39,777 nucleotides of DNA from Chloroflexota bacterium (GTDB taxonomy: Bacteria; Chloroflexota; Dehalococcoidia; Lucifugimonadales; UBA1127). Positions within the stretch are counted from its first letter, which is position 1, and every line of letters starts with the position of its first letter. Of this stretch, positions 19,687 to 21,346 are shown piece after piece. The notes beneath the pieces were generated by a model. That model worked only from the letters and a program-made list of their open reading frames with translations, did not search any database and was not told where the DNA came from. Location: the NCBI GenBank assembly GCA_026713825.1, contig JAPONS010000013.1:1-39777 (forward strand), in the 5' to 3' direction. The translations under genes were made by a program, and so were the position numbers.

Positions 19687-20328
19687 ATGACGCATCTCCT
19701 GGAGCTGGTTGGCGGTTGGATTGAGGAACTGATCCTTGCCATTGGGTATCCGGGGATTGTGCTGGTCATGGCGATTGAGAATGTGTTTCCGCCGATACCC
19801 TCTGAGGCGGTGCTGCCGTTTGCGGGGGCGCTGGCGGCGGACGGGGAACTGAGCTTCTGGGGCGCCGTCGCCGCGGGGACGGCGGGGTCGGTGCTGGGGG
19901 CCGTCGTGCTGTACGCCGTGGGGTACGTGGCGCACGAGGCGGGGGTACGGCGGCTGGTGGCGGCGTACGGGCGGTACGTTTTCATCTCGGAGCACGACCT
20001 GGACCGGGCCGCGGGGTGGTTCGAGCGGTACGGCGAGGCCGTGATCTTCTTCGGACGGCTCATCCCCATCATCCGGAGCATCGTGTCGGTGCCGGCGGGG
20101 TACACGCGGATGAACCCGGTGCGGTTCCTGCTGTACACGACGCTGGGCACGGCGCTGTGGAGCCTGCTGCTCACGTACGCGGGGTGGGCGCTCGGCGAGA
20201 ACTGGGAGACGATCCGGGAGTACACGGGGCCGTACGAGAACGGGGCGCTGGCGGTGATTGTGCTCGGCGCCGTGGGGTTCGTCGGGTGGCGGGCGTGGCG
20301 GCGATGGCAGTCGCGCGGCGAGGGGTGA
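19687..20328 (+). CDS. DedA-family membrane protein (VTT domain)
   Basis: 213 aa, typical DedA length. Signature segments are present: 'MAIENVFPPIPSEAVLPFAG' (residues 29-48) with the conserved Pro and Glu of the re-entrant loop, and 'FFGRLIPIIRSIVSVPAGYTRM' holding the conserved Arg, Pro and Gly of the second loop. Five to six TM helices are expected and the C-terminus is basic ('WRAWRRWQSR'). DedA proteins act in the inner membrane; some bacterial members flip undecaprenyl phosphate or phospholipids. No coupling with neighbours is seen. The stretch to the next start (about 220 bp) holds no recognisable element apart from a TAGAAT box. Confidence 0.93.
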   Translation: MTHLLELVGGWIEELILAIGYPGIVLVMAIENVFPPIPSEAVLPFAGALAADGELSFWGAVAAGTAGSVLGAVVLYAVGYVAHEAGVRRLVAAYGRYVFISEHDLDRAAGWFERYGEAVIFFGRLIPIIRSIVSVPAGYTRMNPVRFLLYTTLGTALWSLLLTYAGWALGENWETIREYTGPYENGALAVIVLGAVGFVGWRAWRRWQSRGEG

Positions 20329-20548
20329 GGCGGCGGTTGGGCAGCCTCACGAATGGACATAACGGCGAGCTTCTGGACGTTCCTCGCGGGCTCGCGATTT
20401 GGGCGCTCGCGGCGATGGACGGGCGGCACGCAGGGGGGTAGAATCGCGCTGTCCAACGCGCCGGGGCATCGGTCGAGGCGCGGCGGGGTGGAAATCGAGT
20501 CGGGCAACGGGCTCCCGTGAACGGAAAGCGGGGGCAAAGGAGGGACTT

Positions 20549-21346
20549 ATGACTCAGGTATTCAACGCGTACGCGGTGGGCGCCGCCAAGGGCATCGAGG
20601 AGCACGTGGCGTTCCTCGATCCGACGCCCAAGCGCATCCGGGCGACGTTTGCCGGCGAGACGATCGTCGACTCCCGGAATGCGGTCATCATGTACGAGAC
20701 GCGGCACCAGCCGGTCTACTACTTCCCGCTCTCGGACGTGAGGATGGACCTTCTGGCGGAGACGGCCCACGGCACCCACTGACCGATCAAGGGAGACGCT
20801 CAGTACTGGAGCGTCAAGGTTGGCGAGCGCGAGGTGGAGAACGCCGTGTGGGCGTACCCCGATCCGCTGGAGGACTGCGTGGACGTTCGGGAGTACGTGG
20901 CCCTCTACTGGAACAAGATGGACGCCTGGTTCGAGGAGGACGAGGAGGTCTTCATTGGGCCGAAGGACCCGTACACGCGGGTGGACTGCCTGGCGAGCTC
21001 GCGGCACGTGCGCGTCGAGGTGAACGGCGTGACGGTGGCGGAGACGACACGGCCGGTGCTGCTGCTGGAGACGGGGCTGCCGCACCGCTACTACATCCCC
21101 CGCGAGGACGTGAACATGGACCTGCTGCAGGCCAGCGACCGCGTTGCGGGCTCGCCTTACAAGGGCGAGGCGAACTTCTTCCACGTCGAGGCCGGGGGCG
21201 AGACCATCGAGAACCTCGCGTGGACGTACAACGAGGCGTGGGCGGAGTCGAGCAAGGTCTCTGGCCTCATCTGCTTCCCGCAGGGCAAGGCGGACACGTA
21301 CGTCGACGGGGAGCTGGAGCCGAAGCCGAAGAGCCGCTGGGACTAG
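20549..21346 (+). CDS. Tandem DUF427 protein with in-frame TGA at codon 78; candidate selenoprotein or nonsense-interrupted gene
   Basis: The ATG follows a strong AAAGGAGGG site. One frame encodes two DUF427 domains (about residues 28-140 and 150-255), total 265 aa if codon 78 is read through. Domain 1: 'RATFAGETIVDSRNAVIMYE', 'YYFPLSDVRMDLL', 'HGTH-TGA-PIKGDAQYWSV'. In DUF427 proteins this spot is a conserved Cys (xxCPxKG). Domain 2: 'HVRVEVNGVTVAETTRPVLL', 'YYIPREDVNMDLL', 'GSPYKGEANFFHV', where the site is Ser. The 188 codons after TGA stay intact and family-like. Readings: selenocysteine (a hairpin of SECIS geometry follows), a recent nonsense mutation TGC to TGA, or a base-call error. 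Biochemical function of DUF427 is not established. Confidence 0.75.
20783..20823 (+). promoter_or_regulatory. SECIS-like hairpin directly after the in-frame TGA
   Basis: Upper stem GACGCTC (20795-20801) pairs perfectly with GAGCGTC (20809-20815) around a 7-nt loop AGTACTG. The lower stem CCGATC (20783-20788) can pair with GGTTGG (20818-20823), including G-U pairs, across an internal loop. The apical loop starts 19 nt after the TGA and has G as its second base. That fits the known bacterial SECIS layout (loop 16-37 nt after UGA, G in its first two bases). Chance pairing inside a coding region cannot be ruled out. Confidence 0.45.

Follow-up and report, generated by a model that had tools for sequence, protein, structure and literature searches.

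A gene that standard reading divides at a stop codon, in the 39,777-nucleotide window of Chloroflexota DNA that constitutes the whole stretch analysed here, is almost certainly intact, to judge from its sequence and that of its relatives: the TGA at 20780 would be decoded as selenocysteine (Sec) with the aid of a hairpin located directly downstream. When the TGA is read through, the gene matches the DUF427 profile (PF04248) in two stretches, with a score of 211.6 bits against a gathering cut-off of 22.1. The residue expected at the TGA is Cys, which occupies this site in 31 of 31 DUF427 domains sampled from the same phylum, and Cys homologues from the order align with the Sec site without gaps. 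We infer a mechanism in which the hairpin would recruit SelB with Sec-tRNA(Sec), and Sec would take the place of an invariant Cys in the first DUF427 domain (beta-tent fold), where a beta strand gives way to a turn; the selenol may then act as the redox or nucleophilic centre of an enzyme yet to be characterised. The mechanism is already known, and it is the DUF427 family that is new to the published list of selenoproteins. The features concerned are listed in Table 1.

Table 1. Features of the predicted DUF427 selenoprotein gene and its candidate SECIS element (window coordinates)
Feature	Position	Strand	Remarks and basis
Shine-Dalgarno-like AGGAGGG	20538..20544	+	4 nt upstream of ATG; read from sequence
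Predicted selenoprotein gene, tandem DUF427, one in-frame TGA	20549..21346	+	265 codons, ATG to TAG
First DUF427 (PF04248) domain, contains TGA	20636..20911	+	profile match
TGA, predicted selenocysteine 78, motif HUPIKGDAQYW	20780..20782	+	invariant-Cys alignment, TGA conservation
Putative SECIS element, whole	20783..20823	+	fold, stem conservation, synonymous-site constraint
Lower helix, 5' side	20783..20788	+	pairs with 20818-20823
Upper helix, 5' side	20795..20802	+	pairs with 20807-20809 and 20811-20815
Apical loop GUAC, G first	20803..20806	+	20 nt after TGA
Bulged A, 3' side of upper helix	20810..20810	+	consensus fold and pairing across relatives
Lower helix, 3' side	20818..20823	+	pairs with 20783-20788
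Second DUF427 domain, Ser at Cys site (GSPYKG)	21008..21280	+	profile match, alignment

After the TGA the sequence reads CCGATC AAGGGA GACGCTC AGTACTG GAGCGTC AA GGTTGG. The initial annotation had described a perfect 7-bp stem, a 7-nt loop with G in second place that begins 19 nt after the TGA, and a lower stem of 6 bp, and all of these are present: 20795-20801 pairs with 20809-20815 around the loop AGUACUG (20802-20808), and the lower stem includes G-U pairs. Folding of the RNA returns two nested helices at -14.9 kcal/mol (42 nt; z -2.5, with 6 of 200 shuffles equally good), the z-score being just -1.4 for a fold of 50 nt that includes the TGA. An Rfam scan of the window returned two tRNAs only, and no SECIS match. 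Among the TGA trinucleotides of the window, 15 of 898 (1.7%) precede a Watson-Crick stem of at least 7 bp whose loop contains a G and lies within the permitted distance, and the share rises to 10.7% if G-U pairs are allowed; the hairpin alone is therefore weak evidence, and comparison with relatives had to decide. It is these comparative data, rather than the lone hairpin, that carry the case, and with them a bacterial SECIS element becomes the best explanation of the structure. They also bear on its exact form. In 11 SAR202-type TGA homologues, 100% of cells pair if the upper stem is drawn instead with 8 bp, a bulged A and the loop GUAC, compared with 94.8% for the 7-bp version. The latter sets C opposite A at its sixth pair in four relatives, which the 8-bp bulged form accommodates; this form, which also fits the published model of bacterial SECIS elements, is probably the correct structure. 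The lower helix is paired in 94% of cells in 11 relatives, and two of its pairs have altered on both sides.

The published model of bacterial SECIS elements (bSECISearch; PMC13188914, Fig. 2A) specifies an apical loop of 3-9 nt, an upper stem of 4-16 bp, a G as the first or second loop nucleotide, a distance of 16-37 nt from UGA to loop, and a minimum free energy of -7.5 kcal/mol or lower. The window element has a loop of 4 (or 7) nt, a stem of 8 (or 7) bp, an appropriate G in either GUAC or AGUACUG, a spacing of 19 or 20 nt and the folding energy of -14.9 kcal/mol given above, and so agrees with every rule. It shares with the model a stem-loop directly after UGA, and its GUAC loop fits G[G/U]NN; features absent from the model are the A bulging from the 3' strand and an additional lower helix, which starts right after the UGA. 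Its sequence differs from that of the E. coli fdhF hairpin.

The initial annotation had named two refuting observations, the same stem in homologues with Cys codons and stem pairs not conserved among those with TGA; neither is seen in the Cys homologues and SAR202-type TGA homologues compared. In the SAR202-type TGA relatives 95% of cells form the seven upper pairs, and 8 of 12 sequences retain all seven; none of 16 Cys homologues does, and only 32-38% of their cells pair. Compensatory change is seen in three relatives, in which a C-G pair has become U-A (GAC..GTC to GAT..ATC, a change that also replaces Val with Ile), although the covariation score was reached by 17 of 500 shuffles and reflects few independent events. 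Codons +1 to +12 are the most constrained in the TGA lineages, where synonymous differences number 0/216, 0/162, 0/71 and 0/96 in four separate lineages, lower than in every other comparable stretch of the gene, while the Cys homologues show 12/178 and no extreme at this position. Such low values show that selection acts on the RNA after the TGA, as expected of a SECIS element; farther downstream the gene is under ordinary purifying selection. Fold energy relative to synonymous shuffles differs modestly in the same direction (mean z -1.26 in TGA genes versus -0.42 in Cys genes) and is near zero in Acidimicrobiia. Under a permissive criterion, that is, any stem of at least 7 bp in range, a hairpin is present in 17 of 36 TGA genes compared with 4 of 16 Cys genes. 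The rarity of codons within the hairpin shows no clear trend overall (mean percentile of 0.39 for TGA and 0.46 for Cys). The rarer codons TCA, GTA and GCA are invariant in the 3' arm of the hairpin in seven Acidimicrobiia sequences (L061, L064, L068, L070, L073, L089, L093).

The exact stem is lineage-specific. We considered a single hairpin common to all TGA lineages and rejected it, given that pairing in the register of the window falls to 29-54% outside the SAR202-type group; more distant lineages have other sequences in a slightly shifted position. These are GCUACU-GGUC-AGUAGC in Acidimicrobiia, GCGUCC-UAUU-GGACGC in Nitrospinota, the loop of which lacks the usual G and departs from the published rule, and AGGCCAG-GUA-CUGGUCU in a second Chloroflexota family and Gemmatimonadota. 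The GGUC loop of Acidimicrobiia resembles that of E. coli fdhF. That the lineages share the position of a hairpin and not its sequence, and that Nitrospinota lack the loop G, would be accommodated if Sec were inserted but SelB did not recognise this hairpin, the constraint on nucleotides having some other cause. Against this, the window element conforms to the whole bSECIS model, and the nucleotide constraint begins at the TGA and extends over the hairpin alone; we regard such an explanation as unlikely, and a SECIS element recognised by SelB as the better account.

The TGA itself is widely conserved. In 250 genomes of the order, 18 contain a homologue of full length that is interrupted by a single in-frame TGA, at the identical site in every homologue read; the equivalent pattern with TAA or TAG at the Sec site had no match in these genomes. 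A scan of 84,980 GTDB genomes for the DNA pattern around the TGA produced 42 matches, 39 of which are DUF427 genes with the TGA in frame. These 39 loci span Dehalococcoidia/SAR202 (Chloroflexota), Nitrospinota, Tectimicrobiota (Tectomicrobia), Gemmatimonadota (Gemmatimonadetes), Actinomycetota (Acidimicrobiia) and a few Pseudomonadota. One contig filed under Rhodospirillaceae (L069) encodes a protein identical to that of SAR202 locus L067 around the Sec site, with an equal profile score, and its placement is likely to be a binning error. This distribution bears on whether the gene is simply a pseudogene, or the product of sequencing error, with a nonsense TGA and a hairpin due to chance. The genome is a draft, and comparable hairpins do follow a small fraction of TGAs in the window, as noted above; but the TGA has been kept over dozens of species in several phyla, no TAA or TAG version occurs in the 250 genomes of the order, dN/dS downstream of the TGA is 0.14-0.45, much like the upstream value and indicative of purifying selection, and the genome has the full Sec machinery. 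Because the TGA is shared, a pseudogene is in effect refuted, and we consider it very improbable. The other 58 TGA-interrupted frames in the window, when viewed by eye, included no obvious candidate.

The host genome (2.64 Mb, 96% complete, in 114 contigs) encodes a tRNA-Sec with anticodon UCA, scoring above the cut-off at 68.5 bits, together with SelA, SelB and SelD, which completes the set. The host SelD has its own in-frame TGA at the active-site codon, in HCAGUAAK (L021:1531-1533, genome G000, contig C17), such that SelD is itself a selenoprotein. Within the order, SelA is present in 18 of 18 genomes with a TGA homologue, but also in 201 of 250 genomes overall; being nearly ubiquitous there, its co-occurrence is weak and uninformative evidence. 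Across genomes with TGA-containing DUF427 that lie mostly outside the order, SelA exceeds the cut-off in 20 of 23 tested, the remainder consisting of one with a SelA fragment at a contig end and two without SelA; no SelA was found in the three chance-match genomes tested. Candidatus Thiodiazotropha (L082:3555-3584) has a DUF427 gene with TGA in a genome without detected SelA, and a broken gene or incomplete assembly is possible. The initial annotation had argued that agreement between the Cys position and the hairpin favoured recoding, and this position is strengthened by the machinery, and by conservation of both the TGA and the stem.

Two further alternatives can be dealt with briefly. It is scarcely credible that the TGA is a true stop followed by a second gene, each encoding part of a split DUF427 protein, for although open reading frames called with table 11 are separate (20399-20782 and 20834-21346), this division would fall within a compact DUF427 domain and part the Cys site from PxKG, no initiation codon lies immediately after the TGA, Cys homologues are continuous, and the conserved hairpin would be left unexplained. 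There is likewise next to no likelihood that, through a change of code, the TGA specifies tryptophan or is decoded by a suppressor tRNA; the codon is in frame within a conserved protein, but homologues have Cys and never Trp at the site, neighbouring genes terminate at TGA (e.g., the VTT/DedA gene, at 20326-20328), and tRNA-Sec, SelA, SelB and SelD are all in place.

What the protein does may be approached through its structure. An AlphaFold model (pLDDT 87) places Sec78 at the end of a strand, in the turn before the next. Conserved residues of the protein include E50, Y57, Y58, D63, K81 and W101. Among solved structures the DUF427 protein 3djm lies closest to the model, with Mis18/Yippee and MSS4 next, in agreement with the published beta-tent fold (PMC4287342). 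The second domain of the model superposes on 3djm_C with a Z-score of 18.3 and 1.4 A over 110 residues. 3djm (PF04248, NTP_transf_9) has Cys at the Sec site (TACPLKG); unlike it, and the family Cys proteins, the window protein has a predicted Sec, tandem domains and Ser at the site in its second domain. Methionine sulfoxide reductase B (MsrB) is a Cys- or Sec-based enzyme, and a selenoprotein in animals. It has the same overall fold as DUF427, the beta-tent fold, without significant sequence similarity (PMC4287342). MsrB is not among the structures listed in the comparison for our model, but may still resemble it. That Sec can take over from an invariant Cys suggests this residue as the reactive group of DUF427, and its invariance, combined with the general behaviour of selenoproteins, points by analogy to a redox or nucleophilic role. 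Genes adjacent to the window gene are conserved with the nearest relative only, and the neighbourhood gives no functional clue.

Like the catalogued selenoproteins, this predicted one carries Sec where many members of its family have Cys; unlike them, it belongs to a family, DUF427/PF04248, that the 2026 inventory of prokaryotic selenoproteins (119 families and subfamilies; PMC13188914, Table 1) does not list. A literature search found nothing to link DUF427, PF04248 or COG2343 with selenoproteins, although unpublished database annotation may exist. Our analysis adds a selenoprotein family spanning several uncultured bacterial groups, the genes of which are split or truncated by open reading frame calling, and offers a functional pointer for a widespread domain of unknown function, the structure of which has been solved.

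The history of Sec in this family appears to be complex. A tree of the first domain, based on 98 columns and with many unresolved forks, requires four switches between TGA and Cys, of which well-supported branches force three; one of the four is the Thiodiazotropha gene, which is possibly broken. The TGA proteins of Acidimicrobiia cluster with Cys proteins of Chloroflexota, and repeated gain or loss of Sec is therefore probable. On balance we lean towards DUF427 proteins being unrecognised beta-tent thiol/selenol enzymes, in which Sec may have replaced a catalytic Cys repeatedly, each time with its own SECIS hairpin; the groups gaining Sec would be SAR202-type Chloroflexota with Gemmatimonadota, Nitrospinota with Tectimicrobiota, and Acidimicrobiia. 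Having several lineages with different hairpins provides a natural experiment on how SECIS elements originate inside coding sequence.

Sec and Cys forms can occur together in one genome. The host has a second tandem DUF427 protein (L002; G000 contig C103:15244-15984), a paralogue with 54% identity to the Sec protein and with Cys (TGC) at the Sec site. The corresponding residue of the second domain is mostly Ser in SAR202-type Sec proteins (GSPYKG or GSTYKG), and Cys is retained there in f27 and in Cys-type proteins. In tandem DUF427 proteins from one genus (L050, L051, L052 and L053), the first domain has Asp (EDDPVKG or a similar motif) in place of Sec/Cys, and the second domain has Cys.
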